This document shows, in pieces, positions 1 to 42,184 of a DNA stretch of 42,184 nt. Location: positions 1-42,184 of the IMG/VR virus record IMGVR_UViG_3300043631_000001. One strand, written 5' to 3'. The DNA is from a virus. A model generated the notes under the pieces. It was not told where the DNA came from, ran no database searches, and was given only the letters and a program-made list of their open reading frames with translations. How positions within the stretch are numbered: position 1 is the first letter of the stretch; each line of letters begins with the position of its first letter. Made by a program: the position numbers and the translations under genes.

Positions 1-102
1 CCCCCAGAGCTGCCCCCAGAGCTGCCCCCTGAGCTGCTCCCCGAGCTGCTCCCCGAGCTGCTCCCCGAGCTGCCCCCTGAGCTGCCCCCTGAGCTGCCCC
101 CC
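1..102. repeat. 12-bp coding tandem repeat, left part
   Basis: Eight full units and a 6-base partial of GAGCTGCCCCCN or GAGCTGCTCCCN, perfect period 12. On minus they read as tetrapeptides RGQL, GEQL, WGQL and GGQL, and most base differences fall in codon positions consistent with coding. The array resumes at the right end of the window, so it straddles the cut of the circle. Confidence 0.97.
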
Positions 103-22615: not shown

Positions 22616-24244
22616 CTACCAGATCACCCCCGAGCGGGCCTTCTCCCGGGTCTTCCCGCTGTTGAGCACCAGGCGCCGGCCGAGGCGTGCCCCCACCATG
22701 GCCACGGCGTAGTCCACGAGGCGCTTGGAGTCCCGGGACTGCTTGCCGAGCGTCACGCCCCACTGGTTGGGCCGTCGGCGGGCGTTGTGCGTGTGAAGGC
22801 GCAGCATCGGGTCCCCGTCGTGGGTCAGGGTGCCGTGTTCATCGATGTCAGCCGCCGTCATCTCGGCGGCCTCGGTGAACAGGTGGTTGCGCTCAAGGCC
22901 CCCGTGGGCCGACAGCCGCATATCGAAGAGGACGGCGTTGCCCCGCTCCCGGCCTGGCGTCGACCAGACCATGACCTTCTCCCTGAAGTCCCGGTGCCAC
23001 TCGTCGATCAGGGGAGCCCAATAGAGGGCCTCGGTCTCGTCATCGCGCGCCGGCGATGGGTCCACGCCGAACCACTGGATGTCCCAGGTCTCGAAGGCCG
23101 CCCGCACGGCGGCGTCGACCTCGGCCTTGGGGGCCAGCCAGCCGGTGCCTCGGTCCCCGTGCGGGCGCTGCCAGCCCCCCAGGGCGAGCACGTGGCCATC
23201 GGTGATGCGGCATCCACAAAGGACAGTGGCATCGGTCGACTTCGAGCAGTCGAGGAACATTGCCAGCGGGTCCTTGTCGGCCACCACGACGTCCGCCCGG
23301 GCGCCGGCGTCGAAGCGGCGTGGGTCCACCCAGGCCGTCTCGTTCGTGGGCAGGGCGTTGAAGTAGTACCGGACGCTGTCGGCCACGGTGATGCGGGGAT
23401 CCTGCGCCTCGTCCCGAATGCGGTCCTGGTCGGTCCAGGGGCTGTCGGCATAGGCCGCCCGGATTCCCTCCTCGAGCTCGGTCTCGACGTGCAGCGAGAG
23501 CGCCGGCGGTGCTTCCCGGGAGTCGTACAGGATGTCGACCCGCCGTGTCCTGCCGCCAGCCTGCAGCTGCCACGCCTCGAACGAGTCTTCGGCCACGGAC
23601 CCCTCCCCGGGGAGGTGGGCGTTCGTGAGCTCGAGGACCCGGGCCTGGCCGCCGGGGGACTTGCCGACGTTGCGCCTGGCCACCGCGGCAAGGGCCTGGC
23701 CCCCGGACGTGTGGGTCATGTGATGGCTCTCGTTCAGGATGATGGCCGTGGCGGGATCGCCCTCCGAGGACCGCTCGGAACGGGTGAGCAACTCGATGCG
23801 GGACCCGTCGTGGCACTGCGATCGCAGCACGCCCGGATCCCAGCCGATCTCCTCGGCGAGGGCGGGGCTCACCATGGCGTTCGCCACCCGGAGCAGGTCG
23901 GCGGCCTGCGCCTCGCTATTGGCCCCGATCTGCACGAGGGCCAGGCGGTGCCCGGCGCCGATGGGACGGCCGTCCTCCCACGCGCTGAAGCGGGACGGTC
24001 CCTTGAGCTCGACCAGAGCGATCGCTGCTCCGAACGGATCTTTCCCGACACCCTTCGCTCCTCGCTTGACGCCGGAACGCCAGATCCATCGGCCGTCCGG
24101 CCGGACGGCGTACCAGAGATGCAGGAACCGCAGCTGGCCCCGGGTGAACTCCCAGGCCTCGCCGCTCAGGTGGTGCACGAGCCGGGGCTCGCCGATGTCA
24201 GCGCCAGCGCACCAGGCGACGATCCCGGGGGCCAGGCTCGGCAC
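22616..24244 (-). CDS. terL: Terminase large subunit
   Basis: 542 aa from GTG at 24244. ATPase: Walker A-like GAKGVGKD (residues 62-69), IILNESHH (168-175) in the Walker B position. Nuclease: AMFLDCSKSTDATVL with the first Asp, then FGVDPSPARDDE and DYAVAMVGARLG. The frame is open for 30 more codons upstream, to just after a TAG at 24337-24335. That stretch (LPWPPDPLGVPSLAPGIVAW across the GTG) looks conserved with other actinophage terminases, so the true start may be an AUC at 24334 behind AGGGAG. Packages DNA with the small subunit at 24663. Confidence 0.9.
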   Translation of the reverse strand: MPSLAPGIVAWCAGADIGEPRLVHHLSGEAWEFTRGQLRFLHLWYAVRPDGRWIWRSGVKRGAKGVGKDPFGAAIALVELKGPSRFSAWEDGRPIGAGHRLALVQIGANSEAQAADLLRVANAMVSPALAEEIGWDPGVLRSQCHDGSRIELLTRSERSSEGDPATAIILNESHHMTHTSGGQALAAVARRNVGKSPGGQARVLELTNAHLPGEGSVAEDSFEAWQLQAGGRTRRVDILYDSREAPPALSLHVETELEEGIRAAYADSPWTDQDRIRDEAQDPRITVADSVRYYFNALPTNETAWVDPRRFDAGARADVVVADKDPLAMFLDCSKSTDATVLCGCRITDGHVLALGGWQRPHGDRGTGWLAPKAEVDAAVRAAFETWDIQWFGVDPSPARDDETEALYWAPLIDEWHRDFREKVMVWSTPGRERGNAVLFDMRLSAHGGLERNHLFTEAAEMTAADIDEHGTLTHDGDPMLRLHTHNARRRPNQWGVTLGKQSRDSKRLVDYAVAMVGARLGRRLVLNSGKTREKARSGVIW

Positions 24245-24345
24245 CCCCAGTGGGTCCGGGGGCCAGGGCAGCGTCAGCCAGGCCCCCGTGTCCGGCTCGA
24301 CGTAGTAGCCGGGCGGGAGGTCGGCCTGGTCGATCTACTTGCTCC

Positions 24346-24663
24346 CTATGCGGGAGGTGCAGGAACATCTCCGGGGAGGATGGGAGCCGCGTCGGGGTGC
24401 ATGGCCGCCAGAGTGGCTGCGTCGGTTTTCATCGCCGCGATGGCATCGACGAGGTCCGGCGACGGCACGAGGCCTGCGGCGGCAATCTCCGCCTCCAACT
24501 TGGCGAGTCCGGCGTCGAAGCGGGCGCCCACTGCTGCAACCTGCACGCCGAGAGCGTCTCGGGCGTCTGACTCTTCACTCATCCGTTCCTCCAGTCGGTT
24601 GATCCTGCGGGCGTGTTCGGGGACCTGCTCCAGAAGCGATTCGAGCCAGCGGAAGGGATGCAT
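24346..24663 (-). CDS. Small coiled-coil protein between the terminase genes
   Basis: 105 aa from ATG at 24663 (TGATG overlap). RWLESLLEQVPEHARRINRL plus EERMSEESDARDALGVQVAA form a long helix; the rest is Ala-rich with APILPGDVPAPPA at the end. Such small coiled-coil genes occur between terS and terL in actinophages. Function unknown. Confidence 0.65.
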   Translation of the reverse strand: MHPFRWLESLLEQVPEHARRINRLEERMSEESDARDALGVQVAAVGARFDAGLAKLEAEIAAAGLVPSPDLVDAIAAMKTDAATLAAMHPDAAPILPGDVPAPPA

Positions 24664-25073
24664 CAGCCGAGCTTGTCGCGGTAGTCGTCGAGGCTCGCAA
24701 CGTCCGACGGCACGGCATCAGTCGTCGGCGTCCCCTCGATCTCCCACATCAGCCGGCGCATGGCCATGGGGTTCAGGCCCAGGCGGTCCTCGAGCTGGCG
24801 GACCTCGGCCAGCAGGTAGCCGGGGGCCTTCGGGCGCTCCGCTGCCAGCACCAGCTTCGTGTAGCGGGCGACAGTGCGGACCCATCCGAGGGCTTCCCAG
24901 GCCGTCGCCTGCGGCGTTGCCCACAGCTGCGCCCACAGGGCCGCCGCCGCCTTCGTAGGCCTGCCGATCGGGAATGCGGGAGGCTCTCCGGTGCGCCCTG
25001 CGGACGGCAGGCGGCGCCAGTCCGGCCGTGCATTCCGCCGCCTGGGGTTGCGGGTCGGCGGGGGGCCGGGCAT
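24663..25073 (-). CDS. terS: Terminase small subunit
   Basis: 136 aa from ATG at 25073. MPGPPPTRNPRRRNARPDWR, then TKAAAALWAQLWATPQATAW, YTKLVLAAERPKAPGYLLAE and VRQLEDRLGLNPMAMRRLMW are the familiar pattern of actinophage small terminases. It recognises the packaging site and recruits TerL. A basic, disordered N-terminus probably contacts DNA. Frames starting further upstream are low-complexity and overlap another gene. Confidence 0.85.
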   Translation of the reverse strand: MPGPPPTRNPRRRNARPDWRRLPSAGRTGEPPAFPIGRPTKAAAALWAQLWATPQATAWEALGWVRTVARYTKLVLAAERPKAPGYLLAEVRQLEDRLGLNPMAMRRLMWEIEGTPTTDAVPSDVASLDDYRDKLG

Positions 25074-28187: not shown

Positions 28188-28228
28188 GTGTGACTTTCCT
28201 GCGAATAACATTTCCGGGTTTGTCACAC
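28188..28228. promoter_or_regulatory. Inverted repeat in the gap ahead of the late block
   Basis: GTGTGAC (28188-28194) and GTCACAC (28222-28228), perfect, 27 bases apart, in the short AT-richer gap between recombinase 2 and the first late-block gene. TACGAT (28177-28172, minus) could be a -10 box. It may be an operator or a recombinase site. Confidence 0.45.
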
Positions 28229-29290
28229 GGTCCAGATGGCGGCTGAGGAGTTCCCCTCGCTGCGGGAGGCGTCCTCGGTGTAGGCGTCGACCATGCGGTC
28301 GCTGTGGTGGCCAGTCTGCGCCTTGATCTTCTGGCGGGACGCTCCCGCCTTCGCTGCGCTGGTGACGTGGCCGCGCCGCAGGGAGTGACCGGCGAACTTG
28401 GCCGGGTCCCGGCCCGCGGCCTTCGCCCGGGCCTTCACGACGTCGGCGACGGCCTGGCCGCTGAGGGGCCTGGCGCCGACGTGGCCGTGGCGATCGATCT
28501 TGCGGAAGACCGGGCCTTCGGTGATCCCGCCGGCGGCGAGCCAGGCGCTCAGAGCGCGCACGGGGCAGTCCTTCGCCTCCGGGGCGTAGCAGACGAGCAC
28601 CGTTCGGCCCTTGCCCGCCTGGTCGGTCTTCGATCGCCGGATCCGGATGTCCATGCCTTCGTCGACGTCCTCGAGGTCTTCGACGGCCAGGGCGGCGAGC
28701 TCGCTGCGGCGGAAGCCGCCGGCGAAGCCCATGAGGACGAGTGCCCGGTCCCGCAGGCCGGCGAGCTGGAGACGGTCGGGGGCGCCGGGCAGGGGGGCCA
28801 CCGGATCGGGGAGGCCAGCGACCATGCTGCGGATGATCGTCGTCGTGGCGGCCGCCTTCGGGCGCTGGGCGGACCCGACGCTGCGGCGGATGCCCTCCCA
28901 GCACTCCTGGACGGCCGGGTGCTTGATCGGGTTGTCGGTGTGGGCGAAACCGGCCCGGGTGTGGGCGACGCTGATGCTGACCATGAACCGGCTGAGGGTC
29001 GAGGCGCTGTAGGCCCGGCGCTCCCCGTTGCGGGTGAGGTAGCCCTCGACGACGAGGTGGTCGAGGAAGCGGCAGATGGCGGCCGGGGTGGCCGGCAACG
29101 CTGACAGGCCCTCAGCGGCGCACCATGCCTCGAAGCGTCGCCAGTCGTCGCGGTAGGCCCGCCGGGTGCTGTCCGCCTTCGCACCCGCCATGAAGGCCCG
29201 GATCCGGGATTCCGCCGCGTCCACCTCCCCGACCGCCTCGAGGGGGCGGATGACCAAGGCTACAGGCTGACCGGGGAGAGGATCGTTCAT
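28223..29290 (-). CDS. Tyrosine recombinase 2 (XerC/D-like)
   Basis: 355 aa from ATG at 29290, chosen because a promoter lies just upstream; an in-frame ATG at 29332 would place translation across the -10 box. The N-terminal core-binding domain has SRIRAFMAGAKADSTRRAYR and WRRFEAWCAAEGLSALPATP. Catalytic set: Arg in GFRRSELAAL (about R195), Lys in RRSKTDQ (about K221), H-x-L-R in GHSLRRGHVTSAA (about 302-305), His in TGHHSDRM (about 328) and Tyr in VDAYTE (about 337). It differs from integrase 1 in length and motifs. It may resolve dimers, integrate, or invert DNA. Confidence 0.9.
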   Translation of the reverse strand: MNDPLPGQPVALVIRPLEAVGEVDAAESRIRAFMAGAKADSTRRAYRDDWRRFEAWCAAEGLSALPATPAAICRFLDHLVVEGYLTRNGERRAYSASTLSRFMVSISVAHTRAGFAHTDNPIKHPAVQECWEGIRRSVGSAQRPKAAATTTIIRSMVAGLPDPVAPLPGAPDRLQLAGLRDRALVLMGFAGGFRRSELAALAVEDLEDVDEGMDIRIRRSKTDQAGKGRTVLVCYAPEAKDCPVRALSAWLAAGGITEGPVFRKIDRHGHVGARPLSGQAVADVVKARAKAAGRDPAKFAGHSLRRGHVTSAAKAGASRQKIKAQTGHHSDRMVDAYTEDASRSEGNSSAAIWTV

Positions 29291-29302
29291 CGGCTCATCT
29301 TG

Positions 29303-29343
29303 TGATAACTCTGCATTATCAAAAGTGAGCATCAGCCTGTCAG
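29303..29343 (-). promoter_or_regulatory. Promoter of recombinase 2 with operator on the -10 box
   Basis: Minus strand CTGACA (29343-29338), 17-base spacer, GATAAT (29320-29315). An inverted repeat TGATAA-N7-TTATCA (29303-29321) covers the -10 box and start point. A regulator bound there would block transcription. The gene's ATG at 29290 is about 18 bases from the predicted start. Confidence 0.7.
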
Positions 29344-30263: not shown

Positions 30264-30346
30264 TGCCAGACCTCCAGTCGTTTGGTCTCAGGGTGGGGGG
30301 TGGTGAATTGCTCCCGGGGTCGGTTCCTCCATGCCTGGCCCGGGCT

Positions 30347-30513
30347 CTAGCGGCTGCGGGGGACAGAACTGCGGGGTGGGTCTCTAGGCACAATGGACAG
30401 TGGGCGTCGTGGGCGGTGATAGGGGGCTAGAACGCAGGTCAGAGGGCCTTTTGGCGGGGTTCAGGGGGTCTAGGCCTAGCCTTGAGGGGGTCTAGGCCTA
30501 GACCCCCTTCTAG
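30347..30513. promoter_or_regulatory. CTAG-rich cluster with 22-bp palindrome, candidate clt or operator
   Basis: Eight CTAG tetramers start at 30347, 30384, 30427, 30470, 30476, 30492, 30498 and 30510. AGGGGGTCTAGGCCTAG occurs twice (30463-30479, 30485-30501), and 30486-30507 is a perfect 22-bp palindrome centred on CTAGGCCTAG. TCTAGCGGCT also occurs twice (30346, 30509). CTAG is normally scarce in such genomes. In Streptomyces plasmids, TraB binds short repeats (clt) near traB; the location here fits, but the motif differs from known ones. Confidence 0.6.
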
Positions 30514-30853
30514 CGGCTCTGAACGGATGGTCGGGGGAGCTGGGGCGGCGTTCCCTGCCCCCCTGGCGGCCCTGGCGGCGGTTCATCTCTTCGACCTGGT
30601 CCCGGAGCATTTCCACCGTGGCCCGCATCACGGCCGTGCGCACGCCGGACCGGTACCAGTGGGCGACGCCCTGGAACGGCCCCCAGGCGTTGTCGCCCTT
30701 GAGGTTCGCCACGATGATCGACACGTGGCCCTCGGACTGCTGCGTGCTGAGGGCCTTGTCGCCACGGGCCTGGCGGCCGGGATAGTAGGGCTGGCCATCA
30801 GCCCCCCGGCGTATCCGGATCCTGCGCCCGTGGTCATAGAAGTAGCCGCTCAT
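30476..30853 (-). CDS. Chimeric small protein containing a copied piece of TraB
   Basis: 125 aa from ATG at 30853 (ATGA overlap with the traB stop, so probably coupled). Residues 1-30 (YFYDHGRRIRIRRGADGQPY) are novel. About 31-43 (GDKALSTQQSEGH) are antisense of a gntR fragment. Residues 44-94 repeat TraB residues 363-413 in frame (SIIVANLKGDNAW...MRATVEMLRDQVEEMNRRQ) with one change, Lys to Gly. The tail is Arg/Pro-rich. It ends in the CTAG palindrome. It may be a recombination product; if made, it carries part of the TraB ATPase core between Walker A and B. Confidence 0.6.
   Translation of the reverse strand: MSGYFYDHGRRIRIRRGADGQPYYPGRQARGDKALSTQQSEGHVSIIVANLKGDNAWGPFQGVAHWYRSGVRTAVMRATVEMLRDQVEEMNRRQGRQGGRERRPSSPDHPFRAARRGSRPRPPQG
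30571..30726. repeat. 156-bp direct repeat, copy 1 (inside the chimeric gene)
   Basis: Matches 31737-31892 at 154 of 156 positions; the only differences are CC for TT at the PFQ codon region. Same orientation, offset 1166 bases, reading frame kept. Confidence 0.97.
30726..30770 (+). pseudogene. 45-bp fragment of a gntR-type HTH gene
   Basis: Plus-strand reading VALGLLRAEGLVATG matches LALGLLRSEGLVYTG of the GntR gene; at DNA level 40 of 45 bases equal 34383-34427, including 20 identical in a row (TGGCCCTCGGACTGCTGCGT). It abuts the end of the copied traB segment exactly. Confidence 0.85.
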
Positions 30854-32976
30854 CTGGCGCCCTGCAGCTCGGTGTCGGCGAGAGACTCGAGAGTGACGCC
30901 TTTGCGGTTGGCATTGGTGCCTTCGGGGGTTTCGCCCCAGACCTGGACGGTCTTGACGTTGTGGCGGCCGAGCTGGGTGCCGAGGTCGCTGGCGTCCCAC
31001 CCGTCGTACGTCTCGGGCCAGCGCTCGGCCAGGCGGGAGGCGATCTGCTCGGACCACAGCCTGGTCTCGCCGATGCCGAAGACGGCTCGGACGTCGTCGA
31101 GGAACGGGCGGGCGGGGGTCTCGACGACGAGGGCCTCGCCGGCTGCCTCGCCGGTCAGGGTGCCCGCCTTGATGCGCAGCTCCCGGCCCCGGTCGCAGAT
31201 CGCCTGCAAGGTGGGGAGGTCCATGAAGTGGGTGCGGACGATCTGGGCGTCGGAGTCGGAGAGCTCCGAGTCGTCGTTGCCGAGCAGCCAGCCGACGCCC
31301 TTGTGGCGGTCCTCGAGCTTGGAGGCGTCCCAGCCCTTGGAGGAGCAGCCGGTGCCGAGGATGCAGTTGCTTGCCTGGTAGTCGCGGACCTTGAGGGCGA
31401 AGCGCTTGCCGAGCTGGCCCCGGATCCCGGTGGGCAGGATGTCGCTGTTGGGGTCCTGGGTTGCGAGGTCGAGCATGATGCCGGACGAGGATCCGACCTT
31501 GGCGAGGTCGGTGAGGTAGAGGCGGGCCATGTCGGCGACGGTCGGGATCTTCTTGGAGCGGCCACGGCCGGTCGGCACGTCGTCCTCGTCCCACGCCGGG
31601 GTTTCGCACTCGAGAAGGCGCTGGACCTCGTCGATGGCGATGACCCGGAGGCCCATGTTGAGGCGCTTGTCGCGGGCGAGGGCCGGGGTGAGCTTCGACT
31701 CGGGGCAGCGGTCGTGCGGGAGGGTCTCGATCAGCTCCTGGCGGCGGTTCATCTCTTCGACCTGGTCCCGGAGCATTTCCACCGTGGCCCGCATCACGGC
31801 CGTGCGCACGCCGGACCGGTACCAGTGGGCGACGCCCTGGAACGGCTTCCAGGCGTTGTCGCCCTTGAGGTTCGCCACGATGATCGACACGTACGGGTCG
31901 AGGGCGGCTGCGGCCACGGGGATGCGGGCGGCGAAGGTCTTGCCCATGCGGGTCTGGGCACCGGTCAGCATGCCGGAGAACACGAGAGACCAGGAGACCA
32001 GGGCGCTCTTGGCGTCGATGCCGAAGGGGAAGCCCTTCCAGAAGTCGAGGCGGTCCATCTTGGCGAGCGGGGTGATCGGGGACTTCGAGGCGTAGGGGTC
32101 GGTGTCGGCGACCCAGAGCATCACGCGGCGCTCGGAGCGCTCGGAGGCGACGGGCATCTGGCTCAGGAAGACCTGAACCTTCTGGACGTCGAGGCCGGAG
32201 GCGATGACCTCGAGCTTCTCCACGGCCTTGGCCACGGTCACGCCGATCGGCAGAACGATGCGGGCGGCGAAGCCCTTGCCGTCGCGGTGGACGCCGGGGG
32301 CCTGGAAGGTGATCGGCTCCTTCTCGCTGCCGAGGCTCGCTGCGTGGAAAGCGGCTACGACCATGTCGGGGGTGATGGTCCGCACGCCGGGGGCCTCGAT
32401 GACGCCGGAGTCGACGATGGGGCGGTCCTTGCGGCGTCCGTGCCAGCCGAGCAGGCCGATACCGACCAGGACGCCGAGAAGAGGTAGCCGGGGGTAGCTG
32501 GCCAGCATGGGGAGGCCGAAGACGCCGGCGATGGCGACGACGATCAGGCGGCCACGGACGCGGTGACCGTGCTCTTTGGAGAGCGAGCGGTACTGGCTCA
32601 CGTGGCCGCTGCGCTCGTGGCCCATGACGGAGCTGGCGAGCGACGTGATGGCGTGGCGCTGGACGGTGAGGCCGTCGGCGTCGAACAGCCAGCGGGTGCC
32701 GGAGGCGAAGGCCCGCCATGCGCCGCGGGGGGAGTAGATCAGCAGGCGGCCGCCGTACAGGGGGAGGCGGACGGCGTGGAGTGCCCCCAGGTGAGCGACG
32801 TGGCGGACCGCCCAGTGCGCAGTGTTCCGCAGCTCGGCGCGGTGGCGGAGCCAGGGGGGCAGGATCGGGCGGAGCGAGGGCCGGGGCTTGGGAGGCTCCG
32901 GCGGGGCCAGGGGGGCGGGGGCATCGGTGTGGGTCGTGATGCCACGGCCTCGGAAGGTGAGCAGGCGGGAGGCCAT
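30850..32976 (-). CDS. traB: TraB/FtsK-like DNA translocase
   Basis: 708 aa from ATG at 32976. A Pro-rich N-terminus, membrane segment(s) at about 143-175 (RLIVVAIAGVFGLPMLASYP; LLGVLVGIGLLGW), then a RecA-like motor: Walker A GAQTRMGKT (339-347), Walker B RVIAIDE (444-450), LDLATQDPNSDILPTGIRGQ as sensor region. The C-terminus is a likely winged helix (RLWSEQIASRLAERWP). This matches the TraB/TraSA translocases that move double-stranded plasmid DNA between actinomycete hyphae. Small Spd-like genes upstream and a GntR regulator support it. FtsK-type phage or chromosome motors are the alternative. Confidence 0.82.
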   Translation of the reverse strand: MASRLLTFRGRGITTHTDAPAPLAPPEPPKPRPSLRPILPPWLRHRAELRNTAHWAVRHVAHLGALHAVRLPLYGGRLLIYSPRGAWRAFASGTRWLFDADGLTVQRHAITSLASSVMGHERSGHVSQYRSLSKEHGHRVRGRLIVVAIAGVFGLPMLASYPRLPLLGVLVGIGLLGWHGRRKDRPIVDSGVIEAPGVRTITPDMVVAAFHAASLGSEKEPITFQAPGVHRDGKGFAARIVLPIGVTVAKAVEKLEVIASGLDVQKVQVFLSQMPVASERSERRVMLWVADTDPYASKSPITPLAKMDRLDFWKGFPFGIDAKSALVSWSLVFSGMLTGAQTRMGKTFAARIPVAAAALDPYVSIIVANLKGDNAWKPFQGVAHWYRSGVRTAVMRATVEMLRDQVEEMNRRQELIETLPHDRCPESKLTPALARDKRLNMGLRVIAIDEVQRLLECETPAWDEDDVPTGRGRSKKIPTVADMARLYLTDLAKVGSSSGIMLDLATQDPNSDILPTGIRGQLGKRFALKVRDYQASNCILGTGCSSKGWDASKLEDRHKGVGWLLGNDDSELSDSDAQIVRTHFMDLPTLQAICDRGRELRIKAGTLTGEAAGEALVVETPARPFLDDVRAVFGIGETRLWSEQIASRLAERWPETYDGWDASDLGTQLGRHNVKTVQVWGETPEGTNANRKGVTLESLADTELQGAR
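31737..31892. repeat. 156-bp direct repeat, copy 2 (inside traB)
   Basis: The parent copy of 30571-30726, coding TraB residues about 363-413 between Walker A and Walker B. Confidence 0.97.
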
Positions 32977-32977
32977 G

Positions 32978-33208
32978 TCAGGGGGCCGTGGTGGGAGCGG
33001 GAGCGGCGGGCTGTGTAGGGGCTGCGGGGGTGATGCCGGAGCCGCTGGTCACGCCGGAGAAGGTCGAGCCTGCGGCGTTCATGCCGGAGCTGATGAGGGA
33101 CTGGCCGGCGGTCATGACCCGGCCCATGTCGGCGGAGACCTGGCCGGGGTTGTGGCCTGCCCAGCCGACGAAACAGAGAATTGCGAGCCACTTCACGAGC
33201 GTTTTCAC
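32978..33208 (-). CDS. Spd-like small exported or membrane protein
   Basis: 76 aa from GTG at 33208 (AAGGACCCCAAG upstream), ending 1 base before traB. LVKWLAILCFVGWAGHNPGQ is a TM or signal segment, the rest Ser/Gly/Thr-rich with PAAPTQPAAPAPTTAP at the end. Small hydrophobic proteins beside traB are called Spd (spread) in Streptomyces plasmids. Sequence alone does not prove membership. Confidence 0.65.
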   Translation of the reverse strand: MKTLVKWLAILCFVGWAGHNPGQVSADMGRVMTAGQSLISSGMNAAGSTFSGVTSGSGITPAAPTQPAAPAPTTAP

Positions 33209-33453
33209 CTTGGGGTCCTTTCCTTGGGGCCAGCGATGAGGAGCAGGACGAAACCGAGAACCTTGGAGAGCAGCCAGAGCACGAGGAGGAGGGCCAGCCA
33301 ATAGCCCGGCCCGCCGTCGAGGAAGGCGCCGATCATGTGGGCCGCGGCGTGAGGGATATCCGCTCCGTACTGGGCGAGGATGGGGGTGGTCGGGGCGTTC
33401 AGGCACTCGGCCACGGTTTGGGCGACGGTGCATGCGTCGGCGAGGGGACTCAC
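33205..33453 (-). CDS. Spd-like two-helix membrane protein
   Basis: 82 aa from GTG at 33453 (GTGA overlap). The N-terminal half is soluble (ACTVAQTVAECLNAPTTPIL), then GYWLALLLVLWLLSKVLGFV, a strong TM helix running into LLLIAGPKERTPR. Paired with the preceding and following small membrane genes upstream of traB. Confidence 0.65.
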   Translation of the reverse strand: MSPLADACTVAQTVAECLNAPTTPILAQYGADIPHAAAHMIGAFLDGGPGYWLALLLVLWLLSKVLGFVLLLIAGPKERTPR

Positions 33454-33872
33454 GGCGTGTCCAGTCCGTCGAAGGCACCCAGGCCGAGAGCGAACTCCTG
33501 CAGGATCGCCCCGGCCAGCGCCCGCCGTGAGGCTTTCTCTTCGTCCGAGCAGTCGCACCAACGCTGATAGTCCCGCTCATGCTCCAGGTCCCGGAAGATC
33601 TGACAGCCACACGGGCAGGCCAGCGCCAGCGTGAAGGGCTTGCCGTCCCAGGGGTAGGCCTTCTTCTCGTGTCGATCCTTGTGACAGCCGCAGACGCAGA
33701 TGTCACCCCGGCACCACCACGGGTGAACTTGGCCCGGGCAGGTAGCGCAGCCATCGCAATGGACCACGACAGAGCGTTCGCAGGTGAGGCACTCACCTCT
33801 CGCCCTGATCTGATTCCGGACCTCGGCGGCTGCTCCGCGACCCTCTGTCTCGAGTAGTTCTAACTCCTCCAT
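33450..33872 (-). CDS. Cys-rich zinc-binding protein in the transfer block
   Basis: 140 aa from ATG at 33872 (AAAGGAG upstream). Many cysteines: ECLTCERSVVVHCDGCATCP, WWCRGDICVCGCHKDRH and ACPCGCQIFRD, with a final CDCSDEEKASRRA. Enough for three or four zinc sites, so probably a compact zinc protein acting on nucleic acid or protein. Not a known Spd family to me. Confidence 0.7.
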   Translation of the reverse strand: MEELELLETEGRGAAAEVRNQIRARGECLTCERSVVVHCDGCATCPGQVHPWWCRGDICVCGCHKDRHEKKAYPWDGKPFTLALACPCGCQIFRDLEHERDYQRWCDCSDEEKASRRALAGAILQEFALGLGAFDGLDTP

Positions 33873-33890
33873 CCGACTTGCTCCTTTCGG

Positions 33891-34088
33891 CTAGCGGCGG
33901 CGTCTGGACCAGTGCCAGAGCAGCCAGGCGACGAACAGGGGACGACGGCGGGCCTCGGACTCGGCGATGCGGAGGATCCGGGAGCAGGCCCACCAGACCA
34001 GCGCGACGACGAGGACCGCGACGGGCAGGGGGCCGTGGGCGAAGAGGGCCGAAACGAACCCAGCTGCAGCGTGGAGCGTTGCCACCAC
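33891..34088 (-). CDS. Small membrane protein, first gene of the tra operon
   Basis: 65 aa from GTG at 34088 (a second GTG follows at once; GAGGAG adjacent). AAGFVSALFAHGPLPVAVLV and VALVWWACSRIL give one or two TM segments, then a basic tail (ESEARRRPLFVAWLLWHWSR). Topology matches small Spd proteins. It is the gene nearest the divergent promoter region shared with the GntR regulator. Confidence 0.65.
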   Translation of the reverse strand: MVATLHAAAGFVSALFAHGPLPVAVLVVALVWWACSRILRIAESEARRRPLFVAWLLWHWSRRRR

Positions 34089-34111
34089 CTCCTCATCACC
34101 CGTAAGCTGGG

Positions 34112-34160
34112 ACTTGTTCCTTGAAGTTCAGGCCGATGCCATATACAGCATAGAACAAGT
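34112..34160. promoter_or_regulatory. Divergent control region with 8-bp inverted repeat
   Basis: ACTTGTTC (34112-34119) and GAACAAGT (34153-34160), perfect and 33 bases apart, flank an AT-rich core (CATATACAGCATAG). TTGAAG (34121-34126) could be a -35 box for plus. The gap separates the tra operon from the GntR gene, so it is the likely KorSA-type operator. Confidence 0.55.
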
Positions 34161-34213
34161 TAGCAGGGACAACCCAGGATGTCTAGAGTGAGAATCGTGC
34201 GAACTAGGAACAG

Positions 34214-35005
34214 GTGGGTACAGGCGTGAAGCTCGACCCGTCCGGCGAGGAGCCGCTTTACCAGCAGCTGGCGAACGAGCTGCGCAGACAGGTCTTTGCG
34301 AAGGAGCTCCCGCCGGGGCAACGGCTACCTAGCGAGCCGGAGCTGGCTGAGCAGTACGAGGTCGCCCGCAACACCGTGCGCCTGGCCCTCGGACTGCTGC
34401 GTAGCGAGGGCCTTGTCTACACGGGCCGCGGCCGAGGGACCTTCGTAGCGGAGAACCCGGCGGCGGCTCCCCTGCGGCAGATGGCCTCCCGCACGCACGC
34501 CCGGAGCCGGCGGGAGGACACGACGCAGGACACGTTCGTCACGGACCTGGCGGAGATGGGCCGCGACGGCCGAATGGAGATCCGGGTCGAGCGGATGCCC
34601 GCCCCTGACGAGATCGCCTCCCGGCTCGGCTTGGCCGACGACGAGGAGGCTATCTGCCGACATCGGGTGCAGTACGTCGACGATCGCCCCAGCGCTCTCG
34701 CCGACACCTGGTATCCCGAACGCCTCGTGAGGGGCAGTGAGATCGTCGACGCCGAGGACGTAGCTCGAGGGACGAACCGGGTGCTCGCCGAGCTCGGTCA
34801 CGAGGTCGTCCGGCGGACCGATGAGATCAGCGGCCGGATGCCGACACCCGTCGAAGCGCAGGCGCTTCAGATCGCCGGCGGCGTCCCCGTCCTGACGGCA
34901 CTCCGGACGGGGTTCGACGCGGCCGACCAACCCGTAGCGGTCTATGTGTCGATCCTCCCCACAGACCGCCACGTGGTGGTCTACGACGTCCGCTGTGACG
35001 TCTGA
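34214..35005 (+). CDS. GntR-family (HutC/UTRA) regulator, KorSA-like
   Basis: 263 aa from GTG at 34214; GTG at 34226 is the alternative. N-terminal winged HTH: LYQQLANELRRQVFAKELPP, GQRLPSEPELAEQYEVARNT, VRLALGLLRSEGLVYTGRGR with GTFVAE. The C-terminal UTRA ligand domain runs from about residue 100 to 260 (AICRHRVQYVDDRPSALADT; VLTALRTGFDAADQPVAVYV). In pSAM2-type elements a GntR protein (KorSA) represses transfer and replication genes. Divergent placement from the tra operon fits this. Confidence 0.9.
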   Translation: MGTGVKLDPSGEEPLYQQLANELRRQVFAKELPPGQRLPSEPELAEQYEVARNTVRLALGLLRSEGLVYTGRGRGTFVAENPAAAPLRQMASRTHARSRREDTTQDTFVTDLAEMGRDGRMEIRVERMPAPDEIASRLGLADDEEAICRHRVQYVDDRPSALADTWYPERLVRGSEIVDAEDVARGTNRVLAELGHEVVRRTDEISGRMPTPVEAQALQIAGGVPVLTALRTGFDAADQPVAVYVSILPTDRHVVVYDVRCDV

Positions 35006-41339: not shown

Positions 41340-42184
41340 CTACGACTCTGCTGCGAGCTGGTAGTCACGGCCCTCGGCGAACACCCGGGAGCCGTCGGGG
41401 TAGCGCCAGGTCGAGGCGATCGCCCCTTGGCAGGTCCGCAGGGCCGGGGCCACGCGGAGCATGTAGCTCTTGCGGTGGCCGTCGGGCTCCGGGGTCGAGT
41501 TCGTCACCTCGACCATCACCAGGTCCTCGTCGCCGGGGATCACCACTCGGTGCAGCCGGCGAGGGAAGCCAAGGGCGTCTGTGTCCTCGTCGACCAGAGC
41601 GGCGCCAGCCGCTCGCAGGAACCTCTCCTGTCCGTGCCGCTCGATCATCACCCGCCGGACCTCGGCGTTTGGCTCGCCCAGGATCCGCTCCGCCGTCAGC
41701 GTCTCGGGGGCCTCCACGACCTCCTGCGGCAGACGTACGCCATGGATAGCCCAGAGCCCGTATCCGTCCCGGTAGGCCACCGCCGGGCCATCTGTGCGGT
41801 GCAGCCGCCCCTGCACGTCCCTGGCCACCACAGAGGGCCGATCCGTGAGGATGACGAAGCCCTCGTAGGGCCACCACCATCCGCCGCCGGCCAGCATCCG
41901 CAATCCGCCGAGCCCCGACTCCTGCTGAGGCTGGTACTTCACCCCGATCCGACGGCCGAACTCGAGCCAAGCAACCCAGTTGATGTCGTGCTGCCCGTAA
42001 AGTCCTGCATAGAGCTGCCCCCTGAGCTGCCCCCCGAGCTGCCCCCTGAGCTGCCCCCCGAGCTGCCCCCCGAGCTGCCCCCAGAGCTGCTCCCTGAGCT
42101 GCTCCCTGAGCTGCCCCCCGAGCTGCCCTCAGAGCTGCTCCCCGAGCTGCCCCCCGAGCTGCCCCCTGAGCTGCCCCCTGAGCT
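41340..42184 (-). CDS. DUF6745-family protein, C-terminal part (gene split by the window ends)
   Basis: Frame open from the window edge through the QL array to YAGLYGQHDINWVAWLEF, then GLGGLRMLAGGGWWWPYEGF, VILTDRPSVVARDVQGRLHR, TDGPAVAYRDGYGLWAIHGV, PNAEVRRVMIERHGQERFLR. These are the conserved half of DUF6745 proteins. It completes the 1-366 gene to about 400 aa. One repeat unit (42120-42131) reads TGA GGG CAG CTC, an in-frame stop, where related units have TGG. With the one-base deficit at the join, either the sequence has errors in the array or the gene is broken here. Confidence 0.8.
42012..42184. repeat. 12-bp coding tandem repeat, right part
   Basis: Fourteen full 12-bp units from 42012 to 42179 plus five bases of the next. 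Units vary only at two positions (T/C and last base), plus one C-to-T change in the unit 42120-42131 that creates the in-frame TGA on minus. Joined to the left part, the array would hold about 23 units. Confidence 0.97.

Follow-up and report, generated by a model that had tools for sequence, protein, structure and literature searches.

We consider it probable that the spacer between the traB gene and a clt-like palindrome array of a temperate actinophage carries a templated insertion of 198 bp, joined from copies of two neighboring genes, and that this insertion most probably does not represent a functional gene. The window, i.e., the whole stretch of DNA analyzed here, is the entire virus record IMGVR_UViG_3300043631_000001 (42,184 bp). 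It encodes a large terminase, a portal, a capsid, and a tape-measure protein and is the genome of a temperate actinophage.

The copied patch and its genomic context

The relevant features of the window are as follows.

28223–29332, minus strand: tyrosine integrase of the phage
30340–30520, minus strand: clt-like array, non-coding, approximately 180 bp, 83% conserved in the nearest relative (G001)
30470–30501, minus strand: array core, tandem palindromes CTAGGCCTAG-N12-CTAGGCCTAG in a 22-bp register
30476–30853, minus strand: 125-codon open frame overlapping the traB stop (ATGA), judged an unlikely gene
30562–30571, plus strand: left direct repeat CCTGGCGGCC
30571–30768, minus strand: templated insert, traB piece and gntR piece, 198 bp (66 codons)
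30571–30726, minus strand: copy of traB codons from between Walker A and Walker B, in the traB frame (154/156)
30726–30770, plus strand: copy of 45 bp of the helix-turn-helix coding region of gntR (40/45)
30769–30778, plus strand: right direct repeat CCTGGCGGCC
30850–32976, minus strand: TraB-like translocase of the FtsK/SpoIIIE type, 708 aa, from which the first piece was copied (31737–31892)
34214–35005, plus strand: GntR-UTRA regulator (gntR), source of the second piece at 34383–34427

Both copies named in the original prediction were confirmed at the positions given there. The in-frame traB copy aligns to its source without gaps (E 9e-76), the gntR piece matches with E 8e-13 if a short extension is included, and the two are joined without a gap and with an overlap of a single base. 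A chance match is excluded for the copied pieces. No other non-tandem self-repeat of comparable strength occurs in the window, and none was observed in G001. The predicted copying from two neighbors and its recency are likewise real, as the traB copy is 98.7% identical to its source, whereas traB itself is only about 74–77% identical to that of G001. Due to the fact that the gntR gene of G001 differs from that of the window at most synonymous sites of the copied stretch, the gntR piece is derived from the window phage's own lineage. The description of one sense and one antisense copy holds relative to the transcripts of the two genes only; on the DNA, both pieces keep the parental + orientation and the genomic order (traB, then gntR).

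The seven mismatches between copies and sources fall into three clusters. The two in the traB piece are adjacent and alter one traB codon (AAG to GGG), and the five in the gntR piece are confined to two gntR codons (AGC to GCT and TAC to GCC). Since none of 200,000 random placements put seven changes into three codons, multi-base events rather than drift are indicated, and the clustering fits error-prone or patchy repair synthesis. The codon phase of the clusters is given no meaning, because three clusters with 2, 3, and 2 bases would each fall inside a codon by chance in approximately 15% of cases. A diversity-generating retroelement was also discarded, given that the changes in the gntR piece are not confined to A.

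The insert is bounded by direct repeats of 9–10 bp, with CCTGGCGGC(C) at both ends. The 10-bp sequence CCTGGCGGCC occurs six times in 42 kb (both strands) and is located exactly at both insert ends; the traB source likewise begins with CCTGGCGGC, the first nine bases of CCTGGCGGCC. No trace of the insert was found in G001. Joining the flanks without the insert results in a 59-codon frame on the traB stop, equal in length to a frame of G001, which starts on the traB stop as well (GTGA) and ends with ...RAARDGDRPRPPQG, compared to ...RAARRGSRPRPPQG in the window. The final 96 nt of the insert-free window frame and the G001 frame align ungapped (61/96). In case of the first 84 nt (28 codons), similarity to G001, the only close relative, is at random level (27/84, P 0.27), and due to this unalignable part the exact empty site is not visible in G001.

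As to the presence and spread of the copy, raised in the original prediction, the copy is absent from G001, the exact traB-gntR joined sequence has no match in other virus contigs, and at other TraB loci (33 loci, 221 kb) no comparable copy was found, only one weak 72% match.

The nearest relative, G001 (IMGVR_UViG_3300049455_000029, 41,204 bp), possesses a portal protein 97% identical to that of the window. Outside the tra module, DNA identity is mostly 83–92%, except for one long tail-region block with 77%. A second relative, G002 (87,045 bp), contains a terminase, and its TraB and portal proteins are 46% and 47% identical to those of the window, respectively. The tra module (30521–35005), at the left edge of which the insert is located, is the most diverged long part compared to G001 (67–77%, with the exception of one 180-bp block at 83%). 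As most of the genome is closer to G001, the module has probably been exchanged, and this pattern suggests exchange between phages. Both contig ends (window 1–102 and 42012–42184) lie inside one 12-bp tandem repeat, a coding repeat of the QLxG type, and positions 24244–24794 of G001 span both of them; thus, the record represents a circular or circularly permuted genome opened within the 12-bp repeat.

The TraB protein is an FtsK/SpoIIIE-type motor (PHROG 1358, E 6e-23; FtsK structures, E 1e-9) with Walker motifs A and B present (AQTRMGKT and VIAIDE). It is approximately 30% identical to TraB-like proteins of actinobacterial plasmids, and no match was found in the INPHARED phage collection. With 16 bits, it stays below the equivalog cut-off of 800 bits of NCBIfam plasmid_TraB; judged by its sequence, it is TraB-like and not a member of this equivalog. 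An AlphaFold model (pLDDT 44) was too poor for use. Upstream of gntR (34110–34225), inverted ACTTGTTCC / GAACAAGT and GGAACAGG repeats were observed, which possibly represent an operator of the GntR repressor. In its single FtsK-like transfer protein, GntR-family regulator, and integrase, the phage resembles the transfer module of AICEs (pSAM2: TraSA, KorSA), but in contrast to AICEs such as pSAM2 its module belongs to a phage genome that also encodes a terminase, a portal, a capsid, and a tape-measure protein.

The open frame across the insert

The original prediction regarded the 125-codon frame as a chimeric gene. The frame itself, starting as ATGA on the traB stop (minus strand, 30853–30476), was confirmed. 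Its length is not notable, as open stretches of 125 codons are common at the G+C content of the window (8% of Markov-simulated and 24% of actual window stretches). The insert neither interrupts the frame nor shifts its phase, which for 198 bp is expected fairly often. Third-position G+C is coding-like (0.86, 0.96) only as far as the copied part extends and then drops to 0.67, the final third lacking coding G+C periodicity; codons 1–28 show coding-like third-position G+C in the window and G001 alike. Furthermore, the TAG stop codon of the frame is part of an CTAGGCCTAG palindrome of the array. No homologue was found in plasmids or phages, and a comparison with 395 actinomycete genomes gave weak scattered matches only (best E 0.0015). 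In the region, neither a sigma-70 promoter nor a terminator was found, and the RNA fold of the frame, which includes the array palindrome, gives a weak signal (z −2.1).

Frames coupled to the traB stop occur in G001 (GTGA) and G002 (ATGA) as well. Due to the fact that these are unlike in sequence, and that more distant TraB loci are devoid of such a frame, a conserved gene after traB was rejected. In 33 loci the array begins 12–19 nt (in one case −4 nt) after the traB stop, which leaves no room for a gene at this position.

On account of the cheap open length, the lack of homologues, the drop in third-position G+C behind the copied part, the stop within a palindrome, and the missing Walker motifs, we take the 125-codon frame to be most likely a templated insertion and not a gene. 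The chimeric gene thus found no support: besides having no homologue, the frame ends inside the non-coding palindrome array even if the insert is removed. The same applies to the proposed interference of its product with TraB, since the 50 copied residues represent a stretch that lies between the two Walker motifs and includes neither, and a single-sequence AlphaFold prediction of the product (pLDDT 46) gave no confident fold.

Origin of the insert

The structure of the insert would be explained by a new strand that switches templates while DNA close to the palindromic array is repaired or replicated. Such a strand would have copied 156 nt of traB and then 45 nt of gntR, and would have returned via the repeat CCTGGCGGC(C) to the site from which it started. 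A reasonable candidate cause is stalling at a palindrome, followed by template switching at CCTGGCGGC; a long palindrome, GGGGGTCTAGGCCTAGACCCCC, is located approximately 65 bp from the insert. We infer template switching as the process and the array as its presumable trigger. The short two-template insert, the short homologies at the joints, and the clustered mismatches resemble templated insertions formed by microhomology-mediated template switching, which are best described in eukaryotes (e.g., PMC5120786). In contrast to the eukaryotic cases (PMC5120786), a single case in a phage genome, known from sequence alone, is considered here.

Alternatively, the insert may be left over from a tra module that had been duplicated or exchanged, with a second traB-gntR region deleted down to two fragments. 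The conserved genomic order and orientation of the pieces would be in agreement with this, as would the location of the insert at the left edge of the probably exchanged module (67–77% identity to G001 compared to mostly 84–92%). However, all synonymous sites of both pieces equal those of the resident genes, and two large deletions ending within a 9-bp repeat would be required, so that we consider this origin unlikely. An assembly or chimeric-read artefact in the metagenome contig is less probable still. It would account for a joined sequence that is known from a single virus record and from no other virus contig, but there are seven base differences between the copy and its sources, reads that truly span the joints would be needed, and repeats flank the insert.

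Two functional explanations are less probable than these. A real small protein interfering with TraB could refer to the ATGA coupling to traB and to the similar coupled starts in G001 and G002, but the missing homologue, the absence of a Walker motif in the copied part, the lack of a confident fold, the end of the frame in the array, and the absence of a gene at the same place in most TraB loci make it highly improbable. The lowest probability is given to a traB read-through RNA with 45 nt antisense to the gntR mRNA, which would reduce the repressor during expression of the tra genes. Although the predicted duplex (−115 kcal/mol) is stronger than those of random 60-mers of the genome (mean −61, minimum −82), pairing would involve the coding region instead of the start site, 5 of the 45 bases of the piece are mismatched, and it occurs in a single genome. 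Template switching thus remains the explanation we prefer.

The CTAG palindrome array as a candidate clt

Among 26 CTAG sites in the whole genome, 8 are located within 30340–30520 (Poisson P 2e-13), so that the array is strongly enriched in this motif. The array comprises two 10-bp palindromes (CTAGRYCTAG) with a spacing of 22 bp and, behind them, additional CTAG half-sites. Four parts are common to the aligned arrays: the two palindromes 22 bp apart, a half-site approximately 40 bp further on, and a CTAG pair approximately 70 bp further on. The same layout was observed downstream of TraB-like genes in distant relatives with 33–36% identity.

A search with the pattern CTAGRYCTAG-N12-CTAGRYCTAG, run without reference to TraB, identified 20 IMG/VR stretches and, in actinomycete genomes, 23 sites in 19 of 395 genomes, while a reversed control pattern gave no match. 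A TraB-like HMM detected a TraB frame in 33 of the 39 retrieved loci, and for two further loci the TraB C-terminus is cut by the contig end. Arrays of this kind were noted at window 30340–30520, L056–L094, L103, and L105. The distance between stop codon and array given above applies to 33 out of 33, with the independent set being slightly smaller than 33, since G021 and G092 were among the loci that first suggested the pattern. In the window, the gap between traB and array amounts to 348 nt, of which 198 nt are the insert, compared to approximately 160 nt in G001 and 12–19 nt in most loci.

Within a locus the palindromes vary in concert, with GCTACCGGTAGC occurring twice in L047 and L103, GCTATCGATAGC twice in L095, and GCTACGCGTAGC twice in L105. 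The outer palindrome base was compared to a C-terminal TraB residue (alignment column 136), which is R or K for the G-type (32 proteins) and I or K for the T-type (6 proteins). As this count includes related proteins, it gives only a hint at column 136 as a candidate DNA-recognition residue. Other TraB genes carry different repeats at the same place (L097, L098), and the TraB loci L043 and L048 have no such CTAG array. L043 belongs to CP052773.1 (pPaSha2), a 41.9-kb Pseudonocardia plasmid with genes for an FtsK-like protein, phage Bet, and holin; it is likely a phage-plasmid, and the region downstream of its FtsK-like gene differs in sequence.

A large terminase subunit gene is also present in 15 of 23 TraB-bearing virus contigs checked (L005, L006, L058, L059, L061, L062, L064, L066–L071, L073, and L103). 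Thus, TraB and array form a recurrent phage module, and AICE-like transfer modules are not uncommon in phages.

Among the known transfer loci, the clt of pWTY27, which is required for transfer, comprises 16 bp of traA and 159 bp of adjacent repeat-rich non-coding DNA and is bound by TraA (PMC3583192). It shares with the array the position of a non-coding repeat array directly adjoining a tra gene, but its repeats are TGACACC and CCCGCCC (PMC3583192) instead of CTAGRYCTAG palindromes in a 22-bp spacing. Given this common layout, the array is proposed as a candidate clt, i.e., the TraB loading site, of the AICE/phage type of TraB. For the archetype pSAM2, no clt is described according to a 2022 paper. 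The clt of Streptomyces plasmids with its 8-bp TRS repeats (PMC4170104) is similar in that an FtsK-like TraB and repeats at the transfer locus are involved, but its motif is different, and so is the protein, as the low plasmid_TraB score of the window TraB indicates. The sps of pIJ101, CGTCACGTGACG, likewise represents a short conserved palindrome repeated on Streptomyces plasmids, but it is bound by SpdA2 and, unlike the window array, located in or near spdA genes (PMC4170104); due to the different motif, an assignment of the array to sps was rejected. In the open-access literature, none of the papers with CTAGGCCTAG concerns transfer loci, and for the other forms nothing relevant was found among the papers listed.

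Taken by itself, the patch is a curious finding, a clear example of a phage insertion copied from two templates. The neighboring array is of greater importance and is the part worth following, since a motif recognized from sequence alone recurs in actinomycete genomes and in many phage contigs with a fixed spacing to TraB-like genes. We lean slightly towards the array being the clt of the AICE/phage TraB, in which case actinophages of a broad group could be transferred by single-protein conjugation in addition to traveling in virions, and the patch would have pushed the array 198 bp further away from traB. This raises the question of whether phages with TraB and array conjugate, and the motif family provides an exact site on which binding and transfer could be tested.
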